Of a DNA stretch of 5,188 nucleotides, positions 1 through 4,443 are shown piece by piece. A program made the position numbers and the translations under genes. The notes under the pieces were generated by a model. The model saw nothing but the letters and a program-made list of their open reading frames with translations. It was not told where the DNA came from and ran no database searches. The DNA is from Candidatus Heimdallarchaeota archaeon (GTDB taxonomy: Archaea; Asgardarchaeota; Heimdallarchaeia; Heimdallarchaeales; Kariarchaeaceae), in contig WAMJ01000202.1 in the NCBI GenBank assembly GCA_015522385.1, positions 1 through 5,188 on the forward strand, given 5' to 3'. Position 1 is the stretch's first letter. Every line of letters starts with the position of its first letter.

Positions 1-558
1 ATAATATACAGAATCCATAAGGAGTCGGCAAGTACCGTAAATAGCATAATCGAGAGTATTTTTCGAATTAACCCCAGTCGTGTACCAAAATGGAGGTACC
101 AGATTAGATTTCTTAAGGGATTACAGTTCCTCCTATCCACAATTTTGACTGGAGGGAAGGTTGTCATCATTGGTGAACAACTAGAAATTATTCTCTTTCT
201 GATCTCTCTATCAGACATCCTCGGAATATTTGATGGGAAAAATGTAAATGGAGTTGTCTATTCCGAGTCATTGAGTGGTGTGGAAAACCTTCATGGAGTT
301 TCCTCTCTAACCGAACATTCAGTAGAACTTGATCTGATAGAAGATAAATGCATTGTTAATCTACAGGAAGGAGTTTGTTATGGAGAGGTATCAGTACCAC
401 TTCTTAAAATGGCCGAGAAGTATTTCAGAACAGATAAGCACGAAGAGGGTAAACGAATTTTGAGGTCGCTGAACCATTTATTAGTTGATAGGGAATTGTC
501 AACAAATGAGTTAAGAAAGCTGGACAAGAATTTTCTGAAGAATGCTGCTATGCACTGA
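1..558 (+). CDS. Uncharacterised protein, C-terminal 185 residues (5' end outside window)
   Basis: The reading frame is open from the first base to the TGA at 556-558 with no in-frame stop. The only candidate start inside the window is a TTG at 145, which lacks a convincing ribosome site, so the gene almost certainly begins to the left. I do not recognise the family. Visible residues, numbered from base 1: a polar and basic segment (1-35) containing PSRVPKWRYQIRF; then LKGLQFLLSTILTGGKVVIIG (38-58 in part), a helix followed by a glycine turn and a hydrophobic strand; a strongly hydrophobic helix-like run at 61-78; a more polar region (79-130) with two cysteines, C117 and C126; and a charged helical C-terminus (134-182) ending NAAMH. 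The hydrophobic run is short and amphipathic, so a buried helix in a soluble alpha/beta domain fits better than a membrane span. The 3' end overlaps serA tail to tail by 11 bp. That it is coding is likely; its function is unknown. Confidence 0.75.
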   Translation: MIYRIHKESASTVNSIIESIFRINPSRVPKWRYQIRFLKGLQFLLSTILTGGKVVIIGEQLEIILFLISLSDILGIFDGKNVNGVVYSESLSGVENLHGVSSLTEHSVELDLIEDKCIVNLQEGVCYGEVSVPLLKMAEKYFRTDKHEEGKRILRSLNHLLVDRELSTNELRKLDKNFLKNAAMH

Positions 559-1456
559 AGAACTTAATTAATTTTTCAGCGATGATTTTCCCGTTTCGAA
601 ATTGGGCCTCCTTCGTATTGGCACCGATATGTGGTGTAAGTATCACACTATCATTGTTTCGTAGTTCTTCGTTCTGTAACGGCTCTGTTTCGAATACATC
701 GATTGCAGCTCTAGTGACAATCCCACTTTTTATTGCCTTTAGCAGAGCCTCTTCCTTGACCACACCGCCTCTTGCGGCATTAATTATCATTACCCCCTTC
801 TTCATCTTTTCAAAGGCTTCTTCATCTATCATATGCTTTGTTGGGGGAATGAGCGGTACGTGCAATGATATGAAATCAGAACTCTGAAATAATTTGTCCA
901 GTTCACAGTATCTGAAATCATCCAATCCTTCTAGTTCTTTGTTCTGAATGACATCGTATCCAACTACATTCATACCTAGGGTCAATGCAGTTTTGACAAC
1001 AATCGATCCAATAGCGCCTGTACCAATCACTCCCAAAGTTTTACCAGACAGTTCTACCCCAATATATTTTTTCTTTGGCCATTCCTTTTTTTTCATCTCG
1101 GTGTGGGCAAAACTGATTCCCCTGGCCAAGTCGATAATCAAGCCTATTGTGAATTCAGCAACACTATTGGATGGGGCCTCTGGACTATTGAATACACTGA
1201 TCCCTCTCTTCTTACATTCCTCAACATCCACATTGTCCAGGCCGACCCCTGGTCTTCCTATTGCTTTGAGGTTTTCTGCATATGAGAGTAATTTCTGATC
1301 CACGGTCGTGGCACTCCTCACAACGAGACCATCTGCATCCTTGATCTCTGATGGTAACAAGTCCTTCTGCATAGACACATCGACGACATTGAATCCTGCT
1401 CCAGTCAGATGATCCTTGAGGTAATCTGAAACTTTGTCGGCAATAACAATTTTCAC
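548..1456 (-). CDS. serA: D-3-phosphoglycerate dehydrogenase, short form without ACT domain
   Basis: This NAD-dependent D-2-hydroxyacid dehydrogenase most likely oxidises 3-phosphoglycerate to 3-phosphohydroxypyruvate, the first step of cytosolic serine synthesis. In 302 residues it shows: the phosphate-binding RSATTVD (47-53); GRPGVGLDNVD (67-77); the nucleotide-binding GTGAIG (145-150), with D168 at the end of the next strand as expected for NAD preference; and the catalytic triad R229 (NAARGG), E258 (FETEP) and H276 (TPHIGAN). The R-to-E spacing of 29 equals that in E. coli SerA. The chain ends just after the catalytic domain, so the C-terminal ACT domain used for serine feedback in longer forms is absent. 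I start at GTG 1456 because AGGAG lies 7 bases before it and MKIVIADK is a normal family N-terminus; an ATG at 1498 would add 14 unlikely residues. No other serine gene is in view. Another 2-hydroxyacid dehydrogenase activity is possible but less likely. Confidence 0.88.
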   Translation of the reverse strand: MKIVIADKVSDYLKDHLTGAGFNVVDVSMQKDLLPSEIKDADGLVVRSATTVDQKLLSYAENLKAIGRPGVGLDNVDVEECKKRGISVFNSPEAPSNSVAEFTIGLIIDLARGISFAHTEMKKKEWPKKKYIGVELSGKTLGVIGTGAIGSIVVKTALTLGMNVVGYDVIQNKELEGLDDFRYCELDKLFQSSDFISLHVPLIPPTKHMIDEEAFEKMKKGVMIINAARGGVVKEEALLKAIKSGIVTRAAIDVFETEPLQNEELRNNDSVILTPHIGANTKEAQFRNGKIIAEKLIKFFSA

Positions 1457-1463
1457 AACCTTT

Positions 1464-1468
1464 CTCCT
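1464..1468 (-). promoter_or_regulatory. Ribosome binding site AGGAG deciding the serA start
   Basis: On the - strand AGGAG is followed by the 7-base spacer AAAGGTT and then GTG. This spacing is ideal and sits inside the frame that an upstream ATG at 1498 would translate, so it argues for the GTG start. It also implies a leadered serA message or translation from a longer mRNA of the upstream GTPase unit, unlike the leaderless-type promoters elsewhere in the window. A weak AT-rich run (ACAATATTAAG, about 1480-1490) could be a TATA box, but I do not rate it. Confidence 0.75.
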
Positions 1469-1525
1469 AATATCTACTATCTTAATATTGTGAAACATTG
1501 TTGGAAGGAATTGTATCGCTGTGGA

Positions 1526-2323
1526 TTAAGATTTTATGAACTCTCTGTGCAGTAGGCTTTCAAAACTTGCATCAATTATGTTACTTAGCCCCTGTCCTGT
1601 GGCATAATCAAAGAGAGAGATATTGCTATGGCCTTTCATGAGGAAATTGTTAAGGAGGATAGTTGGTGTTCTACCCAAATGCCTAGAGTTGTACGCGATG
1701 ACTATGTTGCAATCTTGGAGATGAACATTTCCTAAAGCGTTGATCATATACTCCTCATCCAAATTCCCAAGATCTATTGTCAGACTAGCAACCTTTTCCC
1801 CCTTTTCAATTACCAGTGCCTTCTCAATACTACCTTCAATAATTTTCAATTTGTTATAGGCAATCTCAATCCAACCCTCTTCAACGTGCGATCGAAATGA
1901 TGCCTTATCTTCAATATTCAACATCAGGATGGAAAGCACAGATTTGAAAAAATTCCTAAATGACCTTGAGTTCGAGATATATAACATCTTCTGATTAACC
2001 AAATCTGTGATCTTGTCCGTGAGGAGTATCCTCTCAACTGTCTGGACGACAATATTTTCGACCATACTTGAGATTAAACTTACCACATGTTCCTTCCGTA
2101 CAGTCCCATTATTGTCGATCTCGAGGAGAAGAATGTGATCTCCATGTGATAGACTTCTTCTGTACAGACCAGATCCAGATATCTGTTTCATACTTGGTAA
2201 TGGGACGCCTAATCCACTAGGGGCTAGGTCTACATCTGTCTCATCCATTGATACCTCAATCCACGAAGTTTTCTTACACTTTGGACAATAGACTTGAAGC
2301 TTTAGCTCTTGCAAGATTATCAC
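1526..2323 (-). CDS. Uncharacterised CPKC-motif protein translationally coupled to the Arf-like GTPase
   Basis: The 265-residue protein belongs to no family I can name. Started at GTG 2323 it shares GTGA with the GTPase stop codon, a classic translational coupling overlap; an ATG at 2356 would add 11 residues and overlap the GTPase by 37 bp. Visible parts: a short strand and one cysteine pair, CPKC (13-16), with no second pair nearby, so metal binding would need another ligand set or a dimer; a glycine-rich link with GSGLYRRSLSHGDH (50-63); a strand LLLEIDNNGTVRKEHVV (65-81), which reads like a small beta domain; a long helical centre (82-140); and a C-terminal alpha/beta part (150-265) with strands such as CNIVIAY (205-211). 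There is no signal peptide or clear membrane span. The tight coupling suggests it works directly with the GTPase as effector, regulator or scaffold; that is inference. Confidence 0.85.
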   Translation of the reverse strand: MIILQELKLQVYCPKCKKTSWIEVSMDETDVDLAPSGLGVPLPSMKQISGSGLYRRSLSHGDHILLLEIDNNGTVRKEHVVSLISSMVENIVVQTVERILLTDKITDLVNQKMLYISNSRSFRNFFKSVLSILMLNIEDKASFRSHVEEGWIEIAYNKLKIIEGSIEKALVIEKGEKVASLTIDLGNLDEEYMINALGNVHLQDCNIVIAYNSRHLGRTPTILLNNFLMKGHSNISLFDYATGQGLSNIIDASFESLLHREFIKS

Positions 2324-2898
2324 CTGTGAAGAGACTCTATATTCTCCATGAGCCATTCCATTCCTAACTGGATATTTTCGCCAAATTTTGCAGATCCAGA
2401 TATTACATAGAAGGGTCTATTTCTTGTTTCTTGGTTAACTTGGTAGATATCTATTGCCTCATTGACTTTATACGGTTGCATGTATTTTAAATCCTGTTTG
2501 TTAATTAGGACAAGGATAGGTTTTCTTCCATTTATGATATTAAGCATGTACTCAAAGCTCAATTTTGATTTTGCGAACTTCTCTGGATCACGATCTGCCT
2601 TGATAGTCCCGTCAATTACGTAAATGATGCCATCGGCTTGCGTAACCGCGAGTCCCCACAGTGCATTTCTGTAGAGTTCCTGTCCTCCGACATCAATTGT
2701 AGAAAGATTCCAGTTCCCTATTTTCACCCCCTTGTTCCTAATGTCTATCCCAAGTGTCGTATCGGTTTCTTCAACTTCTTGCCCTGTTTCAAGATACCTA
2801 ATCAACGTGGTCTTGCCTGCCCCAGACGTCCCAAGTGTAACTATCTTGGCCAACTTTACTTTCTTTCTCTTTGAGAATAATCTTGCTAGTAAACTCAT
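2320..2898 (-). CDS. Arf-like Ras-superfamily small GTPase
   Basis: The 192-residue protein carries every guanine-nucleotide motif: G1 GTSGAGKTT (23-31); a switch I threonine in DTTLGID (46-52); G3 DVGGQE (69-74) with the catalytic-type glutamine Q73; G4 NKQD (133-136); and G5 SGSAK (167-171). DVGGQ followed by R..LW, plus NKQD, is the pattern of the Arf/Arl/SR-beta branch rather than Ras or Rab. The N-terminus MSLLARLFSKRKK could form a short amphipathic helix with a basic end, as in Arf proteins that touch membranes. Residue 2 is Ser, not Gly, so N-myristoylation is not expected, and there is no C-terminal prenylation cysteine. I start at ATG 2898, not the in-frame ATG at 2958, because a TATA box lies about 31 bases upstream of 2898 and the 20-residue extension looks unlike the family. 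It would act as a cytosolic or membrane-associated GTP switch with the coupled downstream protein. Confidence 0.93.
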   Translation of the reverse strand: MSLLARLFSKRKKVKLAKIVTLGTSGAGKTTLIRYLETGQEVEETDTTLGIDIRNKGVKIGNWNLSTIDVGGQELYRNALWGLAVTQADGIIYVIDGTIKADRDPEKFAKSKLSFEYMLNIINGRKPILVLINKQDLKYMQPYKVNEAIDIYQVNQETRNRPFYVISGSAKFGENIQLGMEWLMENIESLHR

Positions 2899-3335: not shown

Positions 3336-3368
3336 CAACTGACTTATTTATTGTTATTGTACGCTCTT

Positions 3369-3442
3369 GCCCCTATAGTGTAGTTCGGCCATCATGGAGG
3401 ACTGTCACTCCTTCGACCGGGGTTCAAATCCCCGTGGGGGCG
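3369..3442 (+). tRNA. tRNA-Asp (anticodon GTC)
   Basis: The 74 bases fold into a full cloverleaf. The acceptor stem GCCCCTA (3369-3375) pairs with TGGGGGC (3435-3441), with one G-U pair, followed by discriminator G at 3442. U8 and A9 are present. The D arm is 3378-3395, with a weak stem (G10-U25, U13-U22) and the invariant GG at 3387-3388. The anticodon stem GAGGA/TCCTT encloses the loop CTGTCAC with anticodon GTC at 3404-3406. The variable loop has 4 bases. The T stem CGGGG/CCCCG encloses TTCAAAT. Discriminator G and anticodon GUC are aspartate identity elements. No CCA is encoded and there is no intron. The 3' 19 bases overlap the convergent protein gene at 3424-4443. I see no strong T-rich terminator directly after it. 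Confidence 0.97.
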
Positions 3443-4443
3443 TTAATCTCTACTTCTAAGTTGTTACATTTAGCAATGATTTTCCCTCTCTTGTCTCTGG
3501 AAATTATCCAGTTATACTTCTGAAAAATCTGATGTATTTTCGTTTCTTCCTTAAGTTTATCTGATATCGGGCTCTGGGTTTTAACATTCATTATTTTCTC
3601 TCCTCCCCTGACTCTGGTTTTATATACTTCATTCTCTGGTTTTTCAACCGATTCTTCTGTAGGGAAGAATGATGGTAGAACCGATAGTAAGTTCTTAGTA
3701 GTTGCCATGCTACCCGTTGAATCCAATATTCCTAATATCACGCGCCATGGATACCTTATATTGTAGATAGAGTTTAGTTTCACTTTTCCTGACATTTCTG
3801 GACAGTCTTTCATTATCTTCAATATCTTCGTTTCATGCATCTCTAGAGTAGACATTTCATTGGCTTGTATTTGAATTGATATACTTGCTCTTATGTTTGA
3901 TTTCTTCCCTTGAATCATCGCGATCCTTAGACTTGTGCAACCTTCTCTAATTATTGCACCTATGGTCTCCTTTTTTATCTTTGAAATAGTTATTTTACTC
4001 AAGTCAAGCACTTTCACATAAATTGATTTCCCAAAGTACGAATGTACTATAATTGATTTCTTCTTTACAGTCGGATTACTTACCATTCGATCATACTTTC
4101 CTTTGAAATGGTATCCTGAATAAGGGATTGCGGAAATTTCGTGGGGCAACAGGGATTCGCTTATCAATTTCATATCAGTATTAAGCTTAGATATTGCCTT
4201 AGGGAGGTCGTCATCAAGTTTAACACTTCTTCCTATGTACAAGAGTGTGGTCTCTCGTGATGTTTCTATGGTGGTTAGCTGGAATGTTTCGATGCATCTC
4301 TCAATGAACTTTTCAAATGATCTGGAGACATCGATTTTATCCTTCCCTCTTTGAAGCCTGAAGGTGATGATTAAGAACCCATTCTTTTTACTCTTCTCAA
4401 TTAGTACTGACTTGCTTGAGAACTTTATGTGGGGTTTTGCCAT
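3424..4443 (-). CDS. Uncharacterised 339-residue basic protein between cdc6 and tRNA-Asp
   Basis: I do not recognise this protein. It is lysine-rich and apparently soluble, with no signal peptide, membrane span or cysteine cluster. An N-terminal alpha/beta part (about 1-125) includes SFEKFIERCIETF (42-54) and TLLYIGRS (65-72). A second alpha/beta part (about 130-250) contains KSIIVHSYF and a helix TIGAIIREGCTSLRIAM. A polar, probably flexible linker (about 255-300) rich in E, K, P and S follows, then a small C-terminal segment (about 300-339) with YNWIISRDKRGKIIAKCNN. ATG 4443 is chosen because a TATA box lies about 27 bases upstream and no ribosome site precedes it, so the message should be leaderless. 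The gene follows cdc6 by 41 bp but has its own promoter. Its last codons are antisense to the tRNA T arm and acceptor stem. The long frame with its own promoter supports a real gene; a nucleic-acid role is only a guess from its charge and neighbour. Confidence 0.8.
   Translation of the reverse strand: MAKPHIKFSSKSVLIEKSKKNGFLIITFRLQRGKDKIDVSRSFEKFIERCIETFQLTTIETSRETTLLYIGRSVKLDDDLPKAISKLNTDMKLISESLLPHEISAIPYSGYHFKGKYDRMVSNPTVKKKSIIVHSYFGKSIYVKVLDLSKITISKIKKETIGAIIREGCTSLRIAMIQGKKSNIRASISIQIQANEMSTLEMHETKILKIMKDCPEMSGKVKLNSIYNIRYPWRVILGILDSTGSMATTKNLLSVLPSFFPTEESVEKPENEVYKTRVRGGEKIMNVKTQSPISDKLKEETKIHQIFQKYNWIISRDKRGKIIAKCNNLEVEINAPTGI

Follow-up and report, generated by a model that had tools for sequence, protein, structure and literature searches.

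The window analysed here is a stretch of 5,188 nucleotides (nt) from a Candidatus Heimdallarchaeota archaeon (assembly GCA_015522385.1, contig WAMJ01000202.1), a relative of the ancestors of eukaryotes, and its subject is a pair of adjacent minus-strand genes encoding an Arf-like GTPase of 192 amino acids (aa) and a partner protein of 265 aa. With moderate confidence, the pair is read as a two-subunit switch in which a zinc-ribbon pseudo-Arf partner docks on an active Arf-like GTPase and controls it. The basis is the pairing of the two genes and its conservation, the conservation of the zinc ligands, the absence of the P-loop from the partner, and natural fusions of the zinc domain to live GTPases. 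The parts of the pair are listed below.

2320..2898, minus strand: Arf-like GTPase, 192 aa, with GTSGAGKT (G1), DVGGQ, NKQD and SAK and a basic, amphipathic-looking N-terminus, MSLLARLFSKRKK
1526..2323, minus strand: partner, 265 aa, GTG start, with a zinc ribbon and a predicted pseudo-Arf domain
2320..2323, minus strand: GTGA overlap of 4 nt between GTPase stop (TGA 2322-2320) and partner start (GTG 2323-2321)
2078..2323, minus strand: N-terminal CxxC...HxxH zinc-ribbon-like domain of the partner, residues 1-82, ligands C13, C16, H60 and H63
2012..2077, minus strand: linking helix, residues 83-104, positioned like the Arf N-terminal helix
1529..2011, minus strand: predicted degenerate Arf-type G domain, residues 105-265, P-loop absent, N212 (Asn) at the G4 place, G5-like DYATGQGL

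The GTPase had been described as a complete member of the Arf branch from its DVGGQ, NKQD and SAK motifs. All G motifs are present, PF00025 (Arf) is matched in Pfam at E 2.2e-26, and the P-loop, DxGGQ, NKxD and SAK by which Arf/ArfR membership is judged are all found between 2898 and 2320. Relatives gave 23 matches in 14 of 56 genomes, and Walker A, DxGG and NKxD are kept in 19/19 aligned GTPases (the window's own and those of 18 same-class relatives). The open reading frame (ORF), with its stop at 2322-2320, has in-frame starts at ATG 2958 (212 aa) and ATG 2898 (192 aa), and the latter is supported because its M1 is invariant in all 19 and the N-terminus that begins there is mostly basic and looks amphipathic. 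The MSLLARLF-type start is conserved across the same alignment, helix and amphipathicity being judged by eye only. The closest PDB sequence relative is 8oul (E 5.5e-19), which belongs to the Asgard ArfR GTPases (HodArfR1, 8oul and 8ouk; GerdArfR1, 8oum and 8oun). For ArfRs, an N-terminal amphipathic helix is reported in passages of PMC12554972, and these passages mention no zinc or pseudo-GTPase partner, in which the window pair differs.

The partner ORF, whose stop ends at 1526, could start at ATG 2356 (276 aa) or GTG 2323 (265 aa). Homologues reaching the N-terminus carry 5-12 residues before the Tyr of Y-C-x-x-C, which supports the GTG start (11 residues; ATG 2356 would give 22). Three 240-aa versions (P0001-P0003) start at Met26 and so lack the CxxC (CPKC) motif; the GTG start originally proposed was preferred over Met26, and longer-ended relatives begin near the GTG. 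No Shine-Dalgarno-like stretch was seen just before GTG 2323. The 4-nt GTGA overlap was confirmed and is, as such, ordinary. Among four orthologous loci it is present in the window alone, the tight spacing being kept and the GTGA not, so the fixed stoichiometry that had been read from the overlap is weakly argued.

The partner has no match above cut-off in Pfam or NCBIfam, in line with its earlier description as an undescribed protein paired with a GTPase. Two protein searches returned 14 proteins, the window's own included; known homologues are few. Three orthologous loci, all in Candidatus Heimdallarchaeota metagenome-assembled genomes, were confirmed by scanning genome contigs, and the orthologous GTPase lies directly upstream of the partner in 4/4 loci, the window counted, with gaps of -4 (window), 6, 4 and 0 nt. 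The GTPases of the three other loci are 67-72% identical to that of the window and the partners only 36-42%, yet the pairing is kept, so adjacency outlasts sequence. The proposed check, that homologues should sit directly downstream of Arf-like GTPases, was also positive in both loci of a second, divergent Arf-family lineage (L042 and L044), where the genes overlap or abut. When 58 same-class genomes were searched, 14 matched at E ≤ 1e-3, comprising the three orthologues and distant paralogues. No relative was found on viral contigs, and a near-mode search of plasmids gave no match.

The CPKC knuckle and the SHGDH stretch of the original prediction are both present, but as two halves of a single predicted zinc site and not as separate features. 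Across 24 aligned N-terminal parts C13, C16, H60 and G73 are invariant, and H63, D70 and R76 are found in at least 90%; because of this ligand conservation CPKC and HGDH were assigned to one CxxC...HxxH site. In the partner model each ligand pair lies at a turn between predicted strands, zinc-ribbon style, and we infer that the partner binds zinc. The zinc-domain profile matched 128 of 227 genomes of the phylum at E ≤ 1e-3; among the matches listed, those at E ≤ 1.4e-15 were all from the first class, and many weaker ones may be other zinc ribbons. A protein search with this profile returned 45 proteins of 69-118 aa, Heimdallarchaeal wherever the source organism was named. Pfam gave three families at E ≤ 0.01 on the 24 zinc-domain members, each in 1/24. 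PDB sequence-profile searches with the partner and with the zinc domain gave nothing significant, and fold searches with the partner model barely cover the zinc-domain part. In a literature search at title and abstract level, neither this zinc domain nor a pseudo-GTPase from Asgard archaea turned up.

In nine proteins from 7 of 56 genomes the zinc domain, a basic helix and a motif-bearing Arf-like G domain form a single chain. The zinc domains of these fusions and of the partner family match in HHalign (probability 96.4%, E 1.2e-9), and the whole-length comparison of the two families (94.5%, E 8.1e-8) extends into the G domain, although the zinc part may contribute most of its score. One fusion, as modelled (pLDDT 76.8, 9 rows), has the same order of 19 hand-paired elements as the partner model, 18 of them of the same type. 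Because the same zinc domain is fused to live GTPases in related archaea, the two products of the window pair probably work together. The partner may descend from such a zinc-Arf fusion; it looks like a zinc-armed dead Arf, and related genomes have zinc-armed live Arfs.

The partner's fold class had been called unknown; in the one predicted model its C-terminal alpha/beta part takes an Arf-type G-domain fold without a P-loop. Walker A and DxGG occur in 0/30 partner-type sequences, and [NT]KxD in 1/30 (TKND in L050, likely by chance). A P-loop-like FFKS was considered as a retained motif and dropped, the model leaving just about 3 residues between beta1 and alpha1.

In the proposed mechanism, the GTPase would be the active Arf-like subunit, probably membrane-bound via its basic N-terminal helix, and the partner would consist of a C2H2 zinc ribbon and a G domain; the latter lacks a P-loop and so is not expected to bind GTP in the normal manner. 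This dead G domain would dock on the live GTPase or next to it at the membrane, with the zinc ribbon providing a second contact, as the fusions suggest. As a dedicated non-switching subunit, the partner would control the nucleotide cycle or the position of the GTPase; it would bind the GTPase directly, in a nucleotide-dependent manner, and regulate it. Relatives of eukaryotic Arf GTPases are present in Asgard archaea, yet very few regulators or effectors have been described for these switches. The partner is conserved in the operon and has an undescribed zinc domain that also occurs in fusions with live GTPases, which makes it a concrete candidate cognate regulator. Such a regulator would suggest an archaeal origin for pairs of G domains in which one is dead.

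Several results weigh against the two-subunit switch. Foldseek with the partner model gave modest TM-scores for the best match (0.38/0.54) and only 6 matches at E ≤ 1e-3, with non-GTPases (phage terminases, a phosphoribosyltransferase) among the top 50; VIA re-aligns only Foldseek's own top 1000, and the PDB is over-rich in small GTPases. HHalign of the C-terminal part only against active GTPases gave probabilities of 0.1-0.8%, no better than the controls (30 column shuffles and one reversed, the latter up to 1.7%). This profile comparison is at control level, so the evidence for the G-domain fold is a single predicted model. Between the partner and fusion models, one of the 19 paired elements differs in type, a strand standing against a short helix.

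The neighbourhoods also limit the proposal. Loci (L numbers) were the best matches of the class and phylum searches plus 40 further places; 39 of these were picked roughly by rank, some matches being passed over, mostly in genomes already sampled, and neighbours were unknown at choosing. Among 82 non-duplicate zinc-domain ORFs in the chosen loci, 30 are directly preceded on their own strand by a GTPase-profile ORF (at -60 to 100 nt; including an EF2-like fragment in L051 and a fragment at a contig end in L117), 3 are fusions, 1 is at an edge and 48 have none. Partner-type proteins without a directly upstream GTPase are those of L030-L041, L043, L045 and L050; in L033 and L036 an Arf-like GTPase lies 1.8 kb upstream. 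In 20 loci of GTPase relatives (L134-L153) no convincing partner-type or zinc-domain gene was found within about 1.5 kb. The GTPase subfamily thus has several partner sets, of which the zinc/pseudo-Arf protein is a recurrent and not an obligate member. Of the new two-component GTP switch module originally proposed, the recurrent pairing of an Arf GTPase with an undescribed partner bearing a predicted zinc site is supported; the 48 ORFs and the 20 loci above speak against a strictly obligate module, and the overlap argument is weak. Single-linkage grouping gave 12 groups, three with an upstream GTPase and one of fusions, one group of 45 being over-merged. Small GTPases number 7-23 per genome (A8 profile; 12 genomes; 47-112 first-look candidates), from which chance adjacency is estimated at a few percent at most.

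Zinc-finger ArfGAPs present an arginine to the nucleotide site, and the main rival explanation is that the partner is a zinc-dependent GTPase-activating protein (GAP) whose zinc domain presents R76, in the IDxNGxVR stretch, in this way. The conservation of R76 in the 24 zinc domains agrees with this, as do zinc-only proteins of 105-130 aa directly 3' of small GTPases in 20 non-duplicate loci (Pfam Ras check in one, L046) and the ArvA/ArvC precedent (PMC10927574). The explanation is weakened because the R76 position is not arginine in the nine fusions (YLGD or YQGD), where a different arginine is invariant; moreover, the partner has no ArfGAP or OapC Pfam match, and a GAP does not need a G-domain fold. 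We consider a GAP unlikely. An ordinary Rossmann-like alpha/beta domain that merely resembles a G domain, with operon and pathway in common and no direct binding, would account for the noise in the C-terminal profile comparison, the modest Foldseek scores with other folds among the matches, and the partner paralogues found beside unrelated genes, and is judged quite improbable. A chance operon arrangement in a small clade, with no functional meaning, would fit true orthologues being seen in only three genomes and the window. Against it, adjacency is kept despite the low partner identity, and other lineages show the combination again, both in neighbouring genes and in fused proteins; an accident is judged very improbable.

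The two-subunit switch was compared with known systems. Eukaryotic ArfGAP is a zinc module that acts on Arf and has a C4 finger of its own fold (CX2CX16-17CX2C); the window partner has CxxC...HxxH instead. ArfGAP and Roadblock/LC7 (MglB-type GAP) profiles are absent among the partner's Pfam matches, the same library finding Roadblock in L083, which agrees with the earlier statement that the partner carries no GAP or Roadblock signature. Rag heterodimers, p190RhoGAP pG domains and dynein light intermediate chain are pseudo-GTPases or paired G domains, and the likeness lies in a G fold, often without normal nucleotide cycling, beside a live GTPase. To our knowledge, no protein of this kind has a C2H2 zinc ribbon, and none is an Arf-type member of an archaeal operon pair. 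The haloarchaeal vesicle module ArvA-ArvB-ArvC (OapABC; PMC10927574) has a zinc-ribbon protein, ArvC (DUF2072), that lies beside the vesicle GTPase ArvA and is a proposed GAP, while ArvB belongs to DUF2073 and is predicted to resemble SepF in structure. A small GTPase and a zinc-ribbon protein in one operon are common to both; the window partner differs in its predicted G-domain fold and the window GTPase in being of the Arf branch. Neither DUF2072 (ArvC/OapC) nor DUF2073 (ArvB) matches the partner, DUF2072 being absent among Pfam matches at E ≤ 1.

An undescribed protein X of about 310 aa and a membrane protein are frequent neighbours of the window GTPase's relatives. In L033 and L036 a zinc/pseudo-Arf-type gene comes after X, GTPase and membrane protein; L034 and L035 carry the last three genes of that set, up to contig ends. 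Family X adjoins related Arf-like GTPases in L033/L147, L036/L150, L134, L136, L138, L140, L146 and L152, and a remote member lies in the window on the strand opposite to the pair. Membrane proteins with 6-7 hydrophobic segments in a simple hydropathy scan adjoin GTPase and/or zinc-domain genes; seven scanned had no Pfam match above cut-off, and a receptor role is speculation. These features are as follows.

1..558, plus strand: 5'-open ORF, remote family X member (hmmsearch E 2.7e-10 among 1595 ORFs)
L033:6563-7375, L034:6640-7569, L035:6674-7495 and L036:4482-5291: membrane proteins with 6-7 segments
L042:4670-5482, L044:4875-5744, L098:3253-4014 and L103:949-1689: membrane proteins with 6-7 segments
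548..1498, minus strand: D-isomer 2-hydroxyacid (phosphoglycerate) dehydrogenase-like gene (PF02826, 1.5e-59), next downstream of the partner

It is possible, though doubtful, that the window is a piece of a widespread Asgard signalling module of a 6-7-segment membrane protein, family X, a live Arf-like GTPase and a zinc-ribbon pseudo-Arf, which would be a membrane-coupled two-G-domain switch whose one subunit is always dead, and a precursor in archaea of the paired G-protein systems of eukaryotes.

Zinc-domain genes were also seen in other settings. In L046 (3931-6237) a FIST-domain protein is followed by a Ras-like GTPase and a 105-aa zinc-only protein. Zinc-domain proteins of 107-119 aa lie directly before a secretion-ATPase-like gene in L089, L092, L100 and L104 (T2SSE by Pfam in L089, the others by eye), and a zinc-domain gene lies just 3' of an EF-G/EF-2-like gene in L007/L050 and L008/L051 (Pfam for L007, by eye for L008). 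The zinc-domain gene of L117 (1052-3425) has a GTPase fragment on one side and, on the other, V4R-like genes, of which one scores above cut-off; that of L083 (1426-3231) is convergent with Roadblock and GTPase genes. The dehydrogenase-like gene of the window is a neighbour outside the proposed complex; a similar gene (by eye) is near the pair in L002 (7345-8277, minus strand) and L003 (8382-9296, minus strand). The window also holds a 339-aa ORF at 3424-4443 (minus strand) with no family match above cut-off, and its 3' end overlaps a tRNA-Asp on the opposite strand (3368-3443, plus) by 20 nt.
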